From the NCBI GenBank assembly GCA_022843745.1, contig JALHNB010000003.1:1-64000 (forward strand): 64,000 nucleotides of DNA. The letters run 5' to 3'. Shown in pieces: positions 4,119-39,250 of this stretch. The DNA is from Anaerolineae bacterium (lineage in GTDB: Bacteria; Chloroflexota; Anaerolineae; Aggregatilineales; Phototrophicaceae). The position numbers and the translations under genes are program-made. Every line of letters begins with the position of its first letter. Positions within the stretch are counted from its first letter, which is position 1. Under the pieces are notes generated by a model. It worked only from the letters and a program-made list of their open reading frames with translations, did no database searches and was not told the origin of the DNA.

Positions 4119-4412
4119 TTATTAATGCCTCCTGGTCAATTTACCTGGAATTTGAAAAGTTTAACGCAAATTCTGGAGATCACACAATTTGTAGTGACCA
4201 ATGTTTTGTTAAACAATTTATCCATGATTCAAAGATTGCTTTTATCATGTTAAATATATCACAAACGATCTCGAATTGTCAAAAAAGCATAAGCAAAATT
4301 TTTAACTTTCACGCGCCCGGATTCAGGTCGATTTGCCCTTCTCAGATGACACCAATCCCGATATAGTTATCGACATCAAAATCGCTATTTGCGTGGTTAT
4401 TATAACGTTTTT
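4119..4412. promoter_or_regulatory. AT-rich divergent intergenic region between the bc operon and RNase D
   Basis: About 290 bases between two divergent genes, clearly richer in A and T than the surrounding coding DNA. It must hold the promoter for the Rieske operon (minus) and probably one for RNase D (plus). I do not see an unambiguous -35/-10 pair, an inverted operator or an RNA gene here. Confidence 0.35.
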
Positions 4413-5552
4413 ATGACGAATACCCCTATCGCCCCGGCACGCTACGTTGATAATAACACGGCGCTGCGCAATCTGGTAAAAAATCTCGAAAACGAGTCTC
4501 TGCTGGCAATTGATACCGAATCCAACAGTCTCCATGCTTATCGTGAGCGAGTCTGCCTGATACAGCTATCGACCCGCACCGCCGATTACATCATCGACCC
4601 GCTGCGAATCAGCGATATGCAGCCGCTTGGCACGATTCTGGCAGATCGAAAAGTCGAAAAAGTTTTTCATTCGGCAGAATATGATGTCATGACGATCAAG
4701 CGAGATTTCGGTTTTCAGATCCATAATCTCTTTGATACCCAGCTTGCTGCACGAATCCTGGGGCGCACCCTGTTCGGCCTGAGTGATCTATTGGAAGCTT
4801 ATATCGGTATTCAGCCGGACAAACGCCATCAGCGAGATGATTGGGGCGAACGTCCGCTGCCCAAAGATAGTTTGCTTTACGCCCAGATGGACACCCATTA
4901 TCTTCCTTATCTGCGGGATCGGCTGCGCGAGGAACTTGAGCAAGCAGACTCATGGATCGAGGCGCAGGAAGCTTTTGAAGAACTCGACACCATCCCATCG
5001 GCAAATAGCAGCCCGTTTGACCCCGACGGTTATTGGCGCATCGGCACATCCAACGACCTGAACCGCCGCCAGATGGCAATTTTGCGCGAACTTTATCTGC
5101 TGCGTGAGCGTTTGGCGGAACAGCGCGACTGCCCGCCATTTAAAGTATTTGGCAATTCGGTGATGATCACGCTGGCACAACTGACTCCGCATGACAGAGA
5201 TCAACTGGAAAAAATAAAAGAATTATCGCCCAAAATCACACGGCGTTACGGCAGCGATCTGCTCCAGGCGATTGAACGGGGTTTGAAGGCCAAGACTCCC
5301 TCACCGCCACCACGTCCGCCGCGCATGGATCCCATCATCATGGAGCGCTTTAACGCCCTGCGCGAATGGCGCAAACAACGGGCGACTGCGCGTGGAGTCG
5401 AGTCCGACGTGATCGTCTCAAAAGATGTATTATGGACATTGGCAGAACGCGCCCCGGCTCATGTGAACGATATGCAAGATATTCCTGGGCTTGGCCCCTG
5501 GCGACTCTCTCATTATGCCAATGAGCTTCTGGAAGTTATCCGGCGCGGGTAA
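4413..5552 (+). CDS. rnd: Ribonuclease D (DEDD exonuclease with two HRDC domains)
   Basis: A 379-residue 3'-5' exoribonuclease of the DEDDy class, which trims the 3' ends of tRNA and other stable RNAs. The ExoI motif is the IDTES segment near residue 33. ExoII includes VFHSAEYDV, and ExoIII has the Tyr-x3-Asp pattern YAQMD. Two helical HRDC domains follow, one around residues 215-275 and one ending with IPGLGPWRL near the C terminus. This matches the E. coli architecture and length. A TTG 24 bases earlier is open, but the ATG at 4413 fits the family start. The bases after its stop contain a degenerate 36-bp repeat. Confidence 0.9.
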   Translation: MTNTPIAPARYVDNNTALRNLVKNLENESLLAIDTESNSLHAYRERVCLIQLSTRTADYIIDPLRISDMQPLGTILADRKVEKVFHSAEYDVMTIKRDFGFQIHNLFDTQLAARILGRTLFGLSDLLEAYIGIQPDKRHQRDDWGERPLPKDSLLYAQMDTHYLPYLRDRLREELEQADSWIEAQEAFEELDTIPSANSSPFDPDGYWRIGTSNDLNRRQMAILRELYLLRERLAEQRDCPPFKVFGNSVMITLAQLTPHDRDQLEKIKELSPKITRRYGSDLLQAIERGLKAKTPSPPPRPPRMDPIIMERFNALREWRKQRATARGVESDVIVSKDVLWTLAERAPAHVNDMQDIPGLGPWRLSHYANELLEVIRRG

Positions 5553-5626: not shown

Positions 5627-7039
5627 ATGCGATTGACATTTTACGGCGCGGCTCGAACAGTAACCGGCTCTCAACATATGGTTGAGGTAAACGGTCAGCG
5701 GATTTTGCTCGACTGTGGCCTGTACCAGGGAAAGCGCAGCGAAGCCGCCGAGCGCAATCAGCATTTGCCATTTCCCGCGCATGAAGTCGATGTCATGGTG
5801 CTGTCCCACGCGCATATCGACCACTCCGGCAATATCCCCAATCTGGTTAAAAGTGGCTACGATGGCGAAATTGTCAGCACCTATGCCACACGCGACCTGT
5901 GCGCGACGATGCTGCTCGACAGCGCGCATATCCAGGAAAAAGATGCCGAATTTGTCAACAAGAAGCGCAAAAAACGCGGCGAAGTGCCTATCGAGCCGAT
6001 CTACACGCAGGAAGATGCAGTAAAAAGCCTCGATTATTTCACATCGCAAAGCTACAACCGTTCGCGCCAGATCGCACCGGGTGTCACACTCACTTTTATT
6101 GACGCAGGCCATATGCTGGGCAGCGCGAGTGTGGTGCTGGATATTGAAGACCATGACGCGCACCGCGATGTTCGACTGGTTTTCAGCGGTGATATTGGTC
6201 GTGCGGGAATTCCGATTATTCGCGATCCGCAAACCGTTGAATCCGCTGATATTCTGATCATGGAAAGTACCTATGGGGATCGCCTGCATCCGCCCTATGC
6301 CGAATCCAACAAGGATTTGGAGCGAATCGTTAATGAAACCTACCAGCGTGGCGGCCTCATCATCGTCCCGGCCTTCGCTGTCGGGCGGACTCAGCAGCTT
6401 GTTTATTCGCTCAACCGATTGGCGGATGCGGGCGATATTCCCCGGCTGCCCATTTATGTGGACAGTCCGTTAGCCGTGAACGCGACATCCGTTTACCGGA
6501 TGCACCCCGAATGCTATGACGACGAAATTCGGAACTTTATACTGGGCGAGAATGGACAGCGTGAAGCCTTCGATTTCGGTCATCTCATTTATACACGCTC
6601 GGTAGAAGAGAGCAAACAGCTCAACTTTTTGCGTGAACCCGCCATCATCATCAGTGCCAGCGGGATGGCCGAGACAGGCCGCATCCTGCATCACCTGAAA
6701 AATCACATCGAAGACCCGAAAAACACGGTTCTCATCACGGGCTGGCAAGCGCCGGACACACTGGGGCGCAAATTGGTCGATAAGCTGCCGACTGTGAGCA
6801 TCTTTGGCGAACCTTATCAAAACCGAGCGCACCTGGAAGTCTTAAATGGCTTCAGCGGTCACGCCGATCATGACGAACTATTGGATTGGGTCGGCGCGAT
6901 TAAAGACAAACCCAAGCGCACATTTCTGGTGCATGGCGAAGAAAAAGCGGCTTTCGCGCTGGCGGAATCGCTCAAAACTCAGTTTACGATGTGGGTGGAT
7001 GTGCCACAAATGAAAGAATCGTTTGAGGTGACACTATGA
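5627..7039 (+). CDS. Metallo-beta-lactamase/beta-CASP nuclease (RNA-processing exonuclease family)
   Basis: A 470-residue protein. The MBL domain carries HAHIDHSG (about residues 60-67) and a later GDIGRAG metal-binding aspartate loop. The inserted beta-CASP domain includes VPAFAVGRTQQ, SASGMAETGRILHHL and the C-terminal NGFSGHADHDEL histidine motif. This order is that of the YSH1/CPSF-73-like single-chain nucleases of bacteria, which cut or degrade RNA using two zinc ions. An AGGAAA site precedes the ATG. The stop overlaps the start of the next gene by four bases (ATGA), so the two are probably translationally coupled. Confidence 0.9.
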   Translation: MRLTFYGAARTVTGSQHMVEVNGQRILLDCGLYQGKRSEAAERNQHLPFPAHEVDVMVLSHAHIDHSGNIPNLVKSGYDGEIVSTYATRDLCATMLLDSAHIQEKDAEFVNKKRKKRGEVPIEPIYTQEDAVKSLDYFTSQSYNRSRQIAPGVTLTFIDAGHMLGSASVVLDIEDHDAHRDVRLVFSGDIGRAGIPIIRDPQTVESADILIMESTYGDRLHPPYAESNKDLERIVNETYQRGGLIIVPAFAVGRTQQLVYSLNRLADAGDIPRLPIYVDSPLAVNATSVYRMHPECYDDEIRNFILGENGQREAFDFGHLIYTRSVEESKQLNFLREPAIIISASGMAETGRILHHLKNHIEDPKNTVLITGWQAPDTLGRKLVDKLPTVSIFGEPYQNRAHLEVLNGFSGHADHDELLDWVGAIKDKPKRTFLVHGEEKAAFALAESLKTQFTMWVDVPQMKESFEVTL

Positions 7040-7434
7040 GCCAGACCAGCATTTTCGCGGACGAATGGCGCGACTGCCTGCGTGAACATTATATGTATGT
7101 GATTCGCGAACACGACGAAGTCACGCGCCCCACGCTGACCAAAGTGATGATCGAGGCCGGATTCACGGACAGCGAATTGGCGGAACTCCGCGTCCGGGCG
7201 ACCATGCGTGCCGACGAGATGCCGGAGAATTTCGTGCCGGATTTGGACGTGCTGGAAACAAAAATTCATCCTGTGCCGGAAATTCCTGTGCCGGAAGTCG
7301 CCGTACTGGAAGAACTCATCGAGGACGCGCCGCCAATAGATGAGGTTGCCGTGCCGGAAGTTGAAGAAGCTAAAGCAGAAGAAGAAATCGAGAAAGATGA
7401 TCCCGATGCGCCGAAGCAGTTAAGCCTGTTTTAA
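7036..7434 (+). CDS. Small acidic protein with a C-terminal clamp-binding-type motif
   Basis: A 132-residue protein of no family I recognise. The first 65 residues look like a folded helical module. The rest is a proline/valine/glutamate-rich, very acidic tail with repeated VPE units (IPVPEVAV, AVPEVEEA). The protein ends in KQLSLF, which matches the bacterial sliding-clamp binding consensus QL(S/D)LF exactly and sits at the extreme C terminus, where such peptides usually function. It overlaps the upstream beta-CASP nuclease gene by four bases and is followed five bases later by tadA. A clamp-tethered adaptor for the nuclease is an inference only. Confidence 0.7.
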   Translation: MSQTSIFADEWRDCLREHYMYVIREHDEVTRPTLTKVMIEAGFTDSELAELRVRATMRADEMPENFVPDLDVLETKIHPVPEIPVPEVAVLEELIEDAPPIDEVAVPEVEEAKAEEEIEKDDPDAPKQLSLF

Positions 7435-7439
7435 CAGAA

Positions 7440-7904
7440 ATGAATGACGAATTCTGGATGCGGGCAGCGCTGGCGGAGGCCGAAAAAGCGCTGGAATACG
7501 CGGATGTGCCGATTGGGGCAATAGCCGTGCGCGATGGAGTCATTATTGGCACGGGTCACAACCGCCGCGAGGCTGACCAGGACCCGACAGCCCACGCCGA
7601 AATGATCGCCATCCGGCAGGCCGCGCAGGTGGTCGGTCATTGGCGGCTGGAAAATGTCACACTTTACTGCACGCTCGAACCCTGCGCCATGTGCGCTGGC
7701 GCGATGGTGTTAGCGCGTTTACCCCGACTCGTCTACGCGACATCTGACCCGAAAGCCGGAGCAGCAGGCAGCGTTCTCAATATCCTGCAACATGAACAGC
7801 TCAATCACCGCGTTGAATGTACACACGGCCTGTTAGCCGAGGAAGCCGCCGAGCAAATCCGCGCCTTTTTTCGCGCCCTTCGCGCCGACGGCCAGCGGCA
7901 CTGA
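7440..7904 (+). CDS. tadA: tRNA-specific adenosine deaminase
   Basis: A 154-residue zinc-dependent deaminase that converts adenosine to inosine at the wobble position of tRNA-Arg(ACG). The HAEM motif supplies the zinc histidine and the catalytic glutamate, and PCAMCAGAM supplies the two zinc cysteines. The N-terminal start (MNDEFWMRAALAEAEKA) and the length match the family. It begins five bases after the previous stop with no strong ribosome site of its own, which suggests expression with the two upstream genes. Guanine-deaminase relatives share the fold, but the motif spacing fits TadA. Confidence 0.92.
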   Translation: MNDEFWMRAALAEAEKALEYADVPIGAIAVRDGVIIGTGHNRREADQDPTAHAEMIAIRQAAQVVGHWRLENVTLYCTLEPCAMCAGAMVLARLPRLVYATSDPKAGAAGSVLNILQHEQLNHRVECTHGLLAEEAAEQIRAFFRALRADGQRH

Positions 7905-8320: not shown

Positions 8321-8407
8321 GGAGAGGTGCCGGAGTGGTTGATCGGGCCTGTCTCGAAAACAGGTATAGCCGCAAGGCTATCGAGGGTTCGAATCCCTCC
8401 TTCTCCG
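8321..8407 (+). tRNA. tRNA-Ser (anticodon CGA)
   Basis: An 87-base cloverleaf. The acceptor arms GGAGAGG and CTTCTCC pair with one G-U. The anticodon stem and loop CCTGT CTCGAAA ACAGG gives anticodon CGA. A long extra arm (TATAGCC-GCAA-GGCTATC) is typical of class II serine tRNAs, and the T arm contains GGTTCGAATCC. The discriminator is G and CCA is not encoded. The stop codon of the opposite-strand gene begins three bases after the tRNA end. Confidence 0.95.
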
Positions 8408-8410
8408 CTT

Positions 8411-35344: not shown

Positions 35345-38300
35345 TTAATCGGGGCGTTCAAAGACCTCGATGTTGTTCTCGCCAACCAGTTTAGCAAGTT
35401 TTTCTTTCAGTTGCTCACAATAATAGGTGGTATGGTTAGGAAATTCCAGCTTAAATGATTGATCTTTTCCCTCAATAACGATGGTAAAACGATCATCACC
35501 GGGAAATTCGGTCATAAAGTTGTGAATTCGCTTCAATCGCCGTCGATCCTGAGCGTCATCCGCAGTGCGCTGCATGTAAACATAAATCCAATGGCGGGCG
35601 CGAGTGGGGTCGCCCATTTCCGCAGCACCCGGCAGCGGGAACATGATGTCGCCCACCGGGGTTGAGATCGGTGCAGACCCGTTAGCTACTGGTGCAGACC
35701 CGTTCATAGCAGCCCGATTCATAGCACTCCCGTTCACAGCAGATTTTGCTGCATATGCGGGCGCGGTGATCTCCGGCTCCGGCACGGGTTCTGGTACAGA
35801 CGGGGGAGCAGGTTCAGACGTAGGCGCAGGGGCAATTGCTTCATTATAAAAATTCGACGGTGGCGAGGGGATGTAATCTTCATCCATCGGCGGCGCATCC
35901 TCGTCGCTCAATGCCCAGGGCGGCGGCTCATTGCTATACCCATTCGACATGAAGCTGTTATCAGGCCGGACGACATCGAAATCCTGCGAAACCTCTTCGG
36001 CGATGATTTGTGGGTCATTGCGGGACATATCAAATTTACCCGCGACTTTGACGATTTTGCCCTCCTCAATGAATTCCTGGAATTTCTGCCATGTGCGCGG
36101 GAAGAGGACAACCTCAATTGCCGTCGCCGATTCACGCCAATCTTCCAGTTGCAGCACACACATCATGTCGCCTTTTTGGGTGACAATTTTGCGCAGTGAG
36201 ACGATCTCCCCGGCCACAGCGACTTGCTTGCCACTCATTGTGGAATCCGGGTCTTTAAGTTCCTGGATGCTGTTTGTGTTGGCATGTTGCAGATCAGCGC
36301 GGTATCTATCGGCGGGTCGTCCGGTCACATACAGTCCCAGCAGTTCTTTCTCCCAGTTGAGCATTTCACGTTCGGGGGCTTCTTCGATGTTCGGCAGCGG
36401 CAGTGAATCATCACCCATGCCGGCAGCGCTCCCGCCAAACATATTCATCTGGCCGATCTCTTTATCTTTGTGGTAATTGGTGCTGTACATCGTGATACGT
36501 TCGAGCGCGTCAAGAAGCTGCTGGCGCTTGCCAAACTCGCGCATCGCTCCCACTTTAATCAGGCTTTCCAGCGTTCGCTTGCCCACCACACGCAGATCGA
36601 CGCGGCGGCAAAAATCTTCGAGGCTTGTGAAACGTCCATCCTCGTTGCGTGAGTCAATAATGGGCAGAAGTGCAGCAGCACCCGCGTTTTTAATCGCCGC
36701 TAACCCAAAACGAATGCCTCGTACACCGCTAGGCTGCTTCTGAATATCAAAATCAAGCAGGCTGTAATTGACATCTGGCGGCAGAATGGGAATGCTCAAA
36801 CGACGCGATTCTTCCAAAAATATCGCGATCTTGGCGGTATCGTCGCGATGTACCGAGAGCATCGCCGTGATGTATTCCGCCGGATAGTGTGTCTTGAGGA
36901 ATGCCGTCTGAACGGTGATGACCGCATAATCCGAAGCATGGGCGCGGTTAAAGCCATAATTGGCGAAAAATTCAATGTCCGCGAAAATGCGCTCGGCAGA
37001 CTCCGCATCTACACCGTGCTGCGGGCCGCGCTCGATAAAAATCGACTTGTGCTTGAGCAAGTCTTTTTCGCGCTTTTTCGATACTGCTTTACGCATCAAG
37101 TCTGCTTCGCCGAGTTCGTAGCCGAACAACTGCCCGGCGATCTGCATGATTTGTTCCTGATAGATGATGATCGCGTAGGTTTCCGAAAGTATTGACTCTA
37201 ATTTCGGATGCAGATAAGTGACGGGTTCTTCGCCGTGCATCCGCTTGTTATACATGGGGATGTATTCCATCGGGCCAGGGCGATAGAGCGAAATGGCCGC
37301 GATGATATTCTCAAACCGATTCGGACGCATCCCGCGCAGCATTTGCTGCATCCCGCCGCTTTCGACCTGGAATATGCCGACGGTTTCGCCCCGTGCAATT
37401 AACTCAAACGCTTTGTCGAGCTGGTCACTTTGGGCAGCATCATGGGACACCTGTTCATGACGATAGGGGATATTCTCCATCGTGTAGCGAATGCCGTGAT
37501 AGCGGTTAATCAATTCACATGCTTTACGCATGATCGTCAGCGTCGAAAGTCCAAGAAAGTCAATTTTCAACAAGCCGATGGATTCGCAGGTTTCCATTGG
37601 GAACTGAGTCACGGCTTTAATCGAACTATTATCGTCGTCCCCGCGCGTCAGGCGATGCAGCGGGATATATTCGACCAGCGGCTTATCACCGACAATCACG
37701 CCTGCCGCATGAGTGGAAGCGTGGCGGCTAACCCCCTGCAAGACTCTGGCAACATCAATCACCTGCCGGATGTCGTTGTCTTTTTTGTACAGCTCAAGCA
37801 GTTCAGGATTGCCTTCGACATACTCCATAATCGGCTTCGGTTTTGGCTCACTGGGGATCAGCTTGGCAGCCTGATTGACAAGCGTCAGCGGCACATCCAG
37901 CGCACGACCAATATCGCGCACAGCCGCCTTTGGCCCCATCGTCCCAAATGTGATAATCGCCGCGACTTTATCCTCGCCATATTTACGCGCGGTGTAGTCG
38001 ATCATTGCTGCACGTTGGTCGTCGGGGTAATCCAGATCAATATCCGGCATACTGACGCGCCCCGGATTCAGGAAACGTTCGAACAGCAAATTATTCTGAA
38101 TCGGGTCGATATTGGTGATCCCCAGGCTGTAAGCCGCAACGCTGCCTGCACCCGAACCGCGCACATTCCACCAAATATCGGCATGACGCGCATACTCACA
38201 CAAATCCCACACGATCAAAAAGTAAGTCTCAAAGCCCATGTTGTGGATAATCTGCAACTCATAATCGAGCCGCTTGCGCAAGTTTTCATCGCGCTCGGCA

Positions 38301-39250
38301 CTCTCACCGTAGCGCCACTTCAGCCCCTTCTCACACAGATAGCGCATATAGGTTTCAGACGTGTGTCCTGCTGGGACGGGGAAAATCGGCAGGTGATAGC
38401 CTTTTGTGTCCAGATTAAGATCGCACATCTCAGCAATTTTGAGCGTATTTTTAAGAGGTTCGCCGTCGCGGATGTTGCCGAAATACTTCCACATTTCGTT
38501 CTGCGAAGTCAGGTGATAGCTGGCATCGGACATCCGCAGGCGATTTTCATCGCGCTTCAGGGCGGTTGTCTGAATGCACAGCAGAGTGTCATGCGGGTCG
38601 TAATCGGACTCAAGCACATAATGCACGTCATTCGTAGCAACCATCGGCGTATCGGCATACTGGCTGTTTTCAACCAACCACTTATTCACGATTTCCAATT
38701 CAGGAATATCGTGCTGCTGTAATTCCAGAAAGAAATTTTCCTTGCCAAAAGTGTCCTGATACCAGCCAAGCAGTTCACGCGCCTCGGCATCCTGCCCCGC
38801 CATCACCGCGTTGGGAATCTGCGCTGCCAGACAGCCACTCGTCGCGATTAAGCCTTCCGCATGAGCCGCCAGAAAGTCGCGGTCAATACGTGGACGGTAA
38901 TAATAACCTTCAAGCTGCGCGGCACTGGCGATTTTGAGCAGATTTTTATAGCCTGTTTCGTTTTTCGCCAGCAGCAGCATGTGAAATGCTTTTTTATCGA
39001 GCTTTGGGTCTCGGTCAAAACGTGATGCCCGCGCCAGATAAGACTCGACACCAATAATCGGCTTGATGTCGGCATCTTTGCAGGCGCGATAAAAGTCGAT
39101 CACGCCAAACATCGTGCCGTGATCGGTGATCGCCAGTGATTTCATGTCGAGCGCTTTTGCCCGGTCAACCAGCTTATCAATGCGGCTCAAACCGTCGAGC
39201 AGCGAATATTCAGTATGGACGTGGAGATGCACGAAATCTTTATCGGTCAT
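35345..39250 (-). CDS. dnaE: DNA polymerase III alpha subunit
   Basis: About 1,301 residues. The PHP domain starts HLHVHTEYSLLDG. The polymerase active site is in PDIDLDYPDDQR with a partner aspartate upstream region SGAGSVAAY. Helix-hairpin-helix, an internal clamp-binding peptide QMNMF (about residue 935) and an OB domain follow. A 110-residue proline/alanine/serine linker with NGSA-like repeats (about 1100-1215) then leads to an 88-residue C-terminal domain. It is the replicative polymerase. A GTG nine bases upstream is an alternative start; the ATG at 39250 fits homologues. A 430-codon opposite-strand frame inside this gene is a shadow. Confidence 0.95.
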   Translation of the reverse strand: MTDKDFVHLHVHTEYSLLDGLSRIDKLVDRAKALDMKSLAITDHGTMFGVIDFYRACKDADIKPIIGVESYLARASRFDRDPKLDKKAFHMLLLAKNETGYKNLLKIASAAQLEGYYYRPRIDRDFLAAHAEGLIATSGCLAAQIPNAVMAGQDAEARELLGWYQDTFGKENFFLELQQHDIPELEIVNKWLVENSQYADTPMVATNDVHYVLESDYDPHDTLLCIQTTALKRDENRLRMSDASYHLTSQNEMWKYFGNIRDGEPLKNTLKIAEMCDLNLDTKGYHLPIFPVPAGHTSETYMRYLCEKGLKWRYGESAERDENLRKRLDYELQIIHNMGFETYFLIVWDLCEYARHADIWWNVRGSGAGSVAAYSLGITNIDPIQNNLLFERFLNPGRVSMPDIDLDYPDDQRAAMIDYTARKYGEDKVAAIITFGTMGPKAAVRDIGRALDVPLTLVNQAAKLIPSEPKPKPIMEYVEGNPELLELYKKDNDIRQVIDVARVLQGVSRHASTHAAGVIVGDKPLVEYIPLHRLTRGDDDNSSIKAVTQFPMETCESIGLLKIDFLGLSTLTIMRKACELINRYHGIRYTMENIPYRHEQVSHDAAQSDQLDKAFELIARGETVGIFQVESGGMQQMLRGMRPNRFENIIAAISLYRPGPMEYIPMYNKRMHGEEPVTYLHPKLESILSETYAIIIYQEQIMQIAGQLFGYELGEADLMRKAVSKKREKDLLKHKSIFIERGPQHGVDAESAERIFADIEFFANYGFNRAHASDYAVITVQTAFLKTHYPAEYITAMLSVHRDDTAKIAIFLEESRRLSIPILPPDVNYSLLDFDIQKQPSGVRGIRFGLAAIKNAGAAALLPIIDSRNEDGRFTSLEDFCRRVDLRVVGKRTLESLIKVGAMREFGKRQQLLDALERITMYSTNYHKDKEIGQMNMFGGSAAGMGDDSLPLPNIEEAPEREMLNWEKELLGLYVTGRPADRYRADLQHANTNSIQELKDPDSTMSGKQVAVAGEIVSLRKIVTQKGDMMCVLQLEDWRESATAIEVVLFPRTWQKFQEFIEEGKIVKVAGKFDMSRNDPQIIAEEVSQDFDVVRPDNSFMSNGYSNEPPPWALSDEDAPPMDEDYIPSPPSNFYNEAIAPAPTSEPAPPSVPEPVPEPEITAPAYAAKSAVNGSAMNRAAMNGSAPVANGSAPISTPVGDIMFPLPGAAEMGDPTRARHWIYVYMQRTADDAQDRRRLKRIHNFMTEFPGDDRFTIVIEGKDQSFKLEFPNHTTYYCEQLKEKLAKLVGENNIEVFERPD

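Follow-up and report, generated by a model that had tools for sequence, protein, structure and literature searches.

A small acidic protein with a conserved clamp-type C-terminal peptide in the order Aggregatilineales, a probable new accessory to DNA replication or repair

The stretch of Anaerolineae DNA analysed here (the window; 64,000 nucleotides) encodes a small acidic protein whose near-constant terminal peptide, of the clamp-docking type, suggests a probable new accessory to DNA replication or repair. We favour, with reasonable though not strong confidence, its being a lineage-specific client of the sliding clamp DnaN, with an N-terminal head that recruits or modulates a replication or repair partner. 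Docking of the terminal peptide on DnaN is the part of this reading that we hold very probable; for an adaptor role of the head the balance tips only slightly in favour. In such a mechanism the terminal QLSLF would dock into the hydrophobic cleft of DnaN, with the acidic flexible tail as a leash between head and clamp, and the three-helix head, held at the clamp, would recruit or modulate its partner. The features concerned are collected in Table 1.

Table 1. Position and supporting evidence of the window features discussed in the text (aa, residues of the small protein).
Feature	Position	Strand	Evidence
RNase D-like 3'-5' exonuclease with HRDC domains, upstream	4389..5552	+	Pfam DNA_pol_A_exo1 3.6e-48, HRDC 2.1e-37
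MBL/beta-CASP nuclease gene, a common though not constant neighbour	5627..7039	+	Pfam Beta-Casp 6.2e-40, RMMBL 5.3e-16
Small acidic protein, subject of this report	7036..7434	+	ATG start, 132 aa, homologues in 130/154 genomes of the order
N-terminal three-helix domain, aa 1-62 (predicted)	7036..7221	+	AlphaFold2 helices 6-24, 30-40, 45-56
Acidic proline-rich tail, predicted flexible, aa 63-127	7222..7416	+	pLDDT and homologue composition
C-terminal motif QLSLF of the clamp-binding type, aa 128-132	7417..7431	+	Homologue conservation, codon variation, published consensus
TadA tRNA adenosine deaminase, 5 nt downstream of the small gene	7440..7904	+	NF008113 187.1 bits (cut-off 150)
DnaE (Pol III alpha), internal QMNMF peptide	36101..39235	-	TIGR00594 1157.5 bits

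The ATG of the small gene shares bases with the TGA of the beta-CASP reading frame (ATGA), and the product ends in DDPDAPKQLSLF directly before the stop codon, its last residues being KQLSLF. An initial annotation of this DNA had pointed to the KQLSLF at the extreme C-terminus, to the four-base overlap and to a long acidic, flexible tail, all of which were borne out, the flexibility by structure prediction. The AlphaFold2 model has a pLDDT of 96-98 over residues 11-50, and the three helices appear again when the head is predicted alone; the values are 56-65 over residues 71-120 and 78 over residues 121-130. Alignments of the homologues show F7, W11, R12, C14, L15, G42 and A55 of the head as invariant or nearly so, with a mean column identity of 58% in the head alignment as opposed to 29% over the whole protein. 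Between residue 76 and the motif, the 115 homologues with an exact motif have a median of 69 residues (range 0-142), composed to 28% of D/E, 15% of P and 3% of K/R, and the median net charge of the family is -26. Model and alignments together show a leash that is variable and predicted to be disordered, behind a conserved head that is predicted to fold. In one 206-residue homologue (L050:5992-6609) units similar to VPDMPIEADDDL are repeated along the tail, which suggests leash growth by repeat expansion.

Sequence and structure libraries offered little by which to name the head. The 132-residue protein had no match in Pfam and two matches only in NCBIfam, both far below their cut-offs; no Pfam match was common to 26 relatives, and the best PDB match of the sequence profile, a designed homeodomain variant, reached an E-value of 0.082, nothing firm. 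Fold searches with the whole model and with the head alone gave no match with E of 0.001 or lower and only weak ones: the best Foldseek matches had E-values of 1.4 and 1.8, and the weak VIA matches included 3bey (Z 7.0, rmsd 2.1, 53 aligned), 1kon, a YebC domain (Z 6.5, rmsd 1.2, 48 aligned), and 8umv_B, a segment of an RFC subunit that we take to be the collar (Z 5.4, rmsd 3.8, 74 aligned). Subunits of RFC recur among the weak structural matches to the head, and the predicted resemblance is a lead rather than a result.

The clamp peptide is the most constant part of the tail. The window and 129 further loci gave a set of 130 genes, three of which are cut or masked, so that 127 have a readable end. 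An exactly terminal Q..[LMF]F is found in 115 of the 127 (I was permitted at the fourth position as well but never occurred); in three more genes the motif lies one or two residues short of the end, and nine are without it. The homologue search proposed by the initial annotation thus found the motif widely conserved, and homologues without it, which had been named there as speaking against the idea, are a minority, although this minority includes two families in which all readable genes lack it. When the last five positions of all 127 genes are counted with no selection for the motif, Q stands in 115, followed by L in 70 or M in 31, S in 88, L in 99, M in 12 or F in 9, and F in 116; at least one member has the motif in 36 of the 43 genera with a readable gene. 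The motif ends none of 686 neighbouring open reading frames of at least 100 residues, and it arose in 67 of 252,000 shuffles of the same tails. Among the 115 genes the motif is written with varying synonymous codons (Q as CAG in 79 and CAA in 36, the last F as TTC in 59 and TTT in 56, the L positions with six codons), which indicates that the peptide and not the DNA is conserved. Judged by these comparisons, the terminal motif is no product of chance and is conserved under selection across the order.

Of the nine genes without the motif, three belong to family f4, two each to f2 and f8, and one each to f3 and f1. In f4 all three readable genes (L183, L185, L189) lie beside a beta-CASP gene and encode 71-72 residues, with neither tail nor clamp peptide; in f2 the motif is absent from both readable genes, and in f8 it is present in two of four. 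The motif-less f4 and f2 genes and the partial state of f8 indicate that retention of the head does not require clamp docking. In one of the f8 genes (L204) another reading frame beside the end gives VQKSLF, and the loss of its motif may be a sequencing frameshift; no such alternative-frame motif was seen in the other eight, one of which (L205) has only 81 bases past the gene.

A second tail element occurs in part of the family. Between head and C-terminus, 51 of the 130 genes (L101, L103, L105 and 48 other loci) have a CxCxxC cluster, which takes the form HPxECxCxxC in 44 and is often followed by HDxxGQPL; judging by its pattern it is possibly metal-binding. The terminal clamp peptide is also present in 48 of the 51, the cluster standing without it in the f2 genes (L200, L221) and in L113.

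The bacterial clamp peptide has the consensus QL[S/D]LF or QxxLF and depends most on positions 1, 4 and 5 for clamp binding in E. coli, according to passages of PMC12309361, and such peptides are described as often C-terminal in parts of PMC4549789 and PMC9690074. The QLSLF of the small protein fits both forms, and the conservation of the family falls on those same three positions. Clients with a C-terminal peptide of the QL[S/D]LF type include PolC of B. subtilis and many transposases. The small protein resembles these clients, as passages of PMC12309361 and PMC4549789 portray them, in its terminal QLSLF-type peptide with positions 1, 4 and 5 most constrained; however, they are enzymes, and it consists of a helical domain of about 60 residues and a leash, in which no enzyme domain was found.

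The genome itself provides further yardsticks. A scan for QLxLF followed by a stop gave 20 pattern matches versus 34 in the reversed control, so that there is no excess of the raw pattern. Among open frames of at least 100 codons it ends three, where about 0.17 are expected from the composition of neighbouring C-termini and an assumed 7,000 genes, itself an estimate: the small gene, a family-4 uracil-DNA glycosylase (UDG) and a radical-SAM protein. The UDG (L240:811-1515; L275, G000:C19:119879-120583; TIGR00758 184 bits, over the cut-off) shares with the small protein a proline-rich charged linker, here ending in PPKQLSLF, and differs by its UDG domain. A search of 25 genomes of the order found a close orthologue in 19 (E 3e-65 or better, a limit set once the gap in E-values had become apparent), and all 19 have the peptide, exactly terminal in 18 and as QMGLFD in one; six of the 25 genomes have distant UDG paralogues only, in which no motif was seen. 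Among the carriers of the UDG peptide are members of f4, f2 and genus g31, in which the small protein is without motif or was not found. The radical-SAM protein (L242:1504-2670, minus strand) ends in PPQQLELF and scores 252.7 bits against TIGR03916, a putative DNA modification/repair family, below the cut-off of 343.5; its terminal peptide makes it a probable clamp client. To these are added the internal peptide of DnaE and a QLELW peptide, spotted by eye, in the Y-family polymerase of the genome. These comparisons show, next to the conserved and selected end of the small protein, similar peptides on proteins of replication and repair that the same genome encodes. DnaN gave a single match per genome in the 11 genomes tested (host DnaN: TIGR00663, 266.6 bits), and its segments DGYRL and MPM, which we take to be part of the peptide-binding cleft, are invariant in six aligned sequences.

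The protein appears to be a feature of one lineage. A protein search found it in 45 of 61 related genomes, and a profile search in 130 of 154 genomes of the order Aggregatilineales (class Anaerolineae, phylum Chloroflexota), among them 81 of 90 high-quality ones; 24 of the 154 gave no match in the profile search, nine high-quality genomes included. The order of the searched genomes is taken as Aggregatilineales from the labels on named relatives, 29 in number, which are for the most part metagenome bins of Anaerolineae or Chloroflexi, two of them labelled Aggregatilineales. In a sample of the class, 31 of 396 genomes matched, all 31 within the order; in a sample of the phylum, 2 of 400 matched, both from the window's own family, the listing not giving the number of further Aggregatilineales members in that sample. 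A record titled Pleurocapsa minor, a cyanobacterium (L060, JAHHHY010000002.1), also carries the gene, and this bin is probably mislabelled. Relatives of the protein were sought in viral contigs, plasmids and phages and none was found, on which ground a mobile origin was rejected. No described protein of such a design was found in the open-licence PMC literature by title or start of abstract.

The main rival to a clamp client with a recruiting head is a regulator or competitor of the clamp, which would occupy the DnaN cleft, with its acidic tail perhaps a DNA mimic, and so limit the access of polymerase or repair proteins in the manner of SocB. We regard this as possible, at a rather low probability. 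It would suit a small and very acidic protein in which the clamp peptide is the only recognised functional element, and small clamp-acting proteins exist: according to passages of PMC9690074, SocB uses the usual motif to bind the clamp cleft, and parts of PMC12795458 describe RipA as acting on the clamp. SocB and RipA are toxins of toxin-antitoxin systems, however, whereas the small gene is chromosomal, is kept order-wide in the high-quality genomes and often stands beside housekeeping genes, frequently rnd, beta-CASP or tadA. No antitoxin-like gene was noticed among the neighbours, which were viewed without an antitoxin-family search, and the blank result in viral contigs, plasmids and phages likewise speaks against this rival. 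So does the head, as its high conservation relative to the whole protein suggests that it does something.

Other proteins linked to a clamp invite comparison too. YabA and Hda, DnaN-dependent regulators of DnaA, are described as clamp-linked in parts of PMC4705661 and PMC9690074 respectively. An AAA+ match, the hallmark of Hda, was found neither in Pfam or NCBIfam for the small protein nor in Pfam for 26 relatives, and the same searches gave no YabA match, as far as those libraries contain a YabA model. YabA has a zinc domain, to which the CxCxxC cluster in a subset of the family offers some likeness. Small, mostly disordered eukaryotic PCNA binders with a PIP-box clamp peptide are represented by p15(PAF) and p21, and the likeness is one of design only; they belong to eukaryotic PCNA and the PIP box, with no sequence relation shown. 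Both are named in a table of PMC9690074.

The gene neighbourhood bears on the tether proposed by the initial annotation, in which the head would bind the adjacent beta-CASP nuclease and the tail would take it to the fork; we now think this improbable. The counts of upstream neighbours cover the 123 loci where 1,200 or more bases precede the small gene, and those of downstream neighbours the 122 loci where 600 or more bases follow it. On the same strand and no more than 150 nt upstream, 48 of the 123 loci have a beta-CASP gene, 13 an RNase D gene and 62 something else; when the limit is 800 nt, 56 have beta-CASP, 15 RNase D and 52 neither of the two. The gene pair is conserved in part of the loci, and in many of them small gene and beta-CASP gene overlap or are separated by less than 20 nt. 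By genus majority at 150 nt, the beta-CASP gene lies upstream in 19 of 43 genera, with families f1, f4, f7 and f8 represented, and this spread suggests that the adjacency is probably old. Against the tether stand the 52 loci with neither gene, the persistence of the beta-CASP neighbour in f4 though the small protein there has no tail, and the genomes in which the nuclease is missing. Among 22 genomes chosen for carrying the small gene without an adjoining beta-CASP gene, 14 have no orthologue (E of 1e-60 or lower) and eight have it elsewhere in the genome; 13 of the 14 small genes concerned have the motif and one (G014/L113) does not. This indicates that the small protein is independent of the beta-CASP nuclease, and an accessory factor occurring only with the nuclease was rejected on the same 14 genomes. 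The tether as main reading was likewise rejected, on neighbour counts and orthologue absence; what stands of the original proposal is a selected clamp-type peptide on a flexible tail.

The neighbours themselves do not carry the motif at their ends, as none of 56 readable beta-CASP genes, 52 RNase D genes and 89 TadA genes finishes in it, and the alternative that they bear the clamp motif instead was rejected. TadA, whose start at 7440 the initial annotation did not mention, follows the small gene at no more than 150 nt in 61 of 122 loci and at no more than 1,700 nt in 84, and by genus majority at 150 nt in 15 of 42 genera. The RNase D-like gene of the window scores 197.9 bits against TIGR01388, below the cut-off of 298.95. 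In two neighbour clusters, whose representatives come from the large genus g18, MalQ- or amylase-like genes, named by eye, lie upstream and complete the set of recurrent neighbours with TadA, RNase D and beta-CASP. A tRNA-Ser (cga) gene lies shortly downstream of the cluster in the window (8321-8408, plus strand). For RNase D, beta-CASP and TadA the best reading is that of a gene cluster passed on by inheritance, not of obligate partners.

A further alternative, that the terminal QLSLF serves the pocket of another adaptor and not DnaN, draws on the circumstance that clamp binding is deduced from the peptide alone; we give it little credence, as the same class of peptide is found on DnaE, the Y-family polymerase, the UDG and the radical-SAM repair-like protein of the same genome, with the conservation concentrated at motif positions 1, 4 and 5. 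It is very improbable that the protein is a clamp-docked adaptor which brings RNase D, the beta-CASP ribonuclease and TadA, all encoded by recurrent neighbour genes, to the replication fork, for example for clearing R-loops or primer RNA, although, if true, it would mean that RNA processing is permanently coupled to the sliding clamp throughout an order of Chloroflexota.

We return to the small protein as a clamp client whose head would serve replication or repair. Known bacterial clamp clients are mostly enzymes, regulators or toxins. The retention, across most of an order, of a small protein with no recognised enzyme domain points to a hitherto undescribed part of the Chloroflexota replisome or repair machinery. 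Since QLxLF C-termini are rare in the genome, and the other two stand on proteins with matches to repair families, the terminal peptide may also help to discover further clamp clients in this uncultured lineage.
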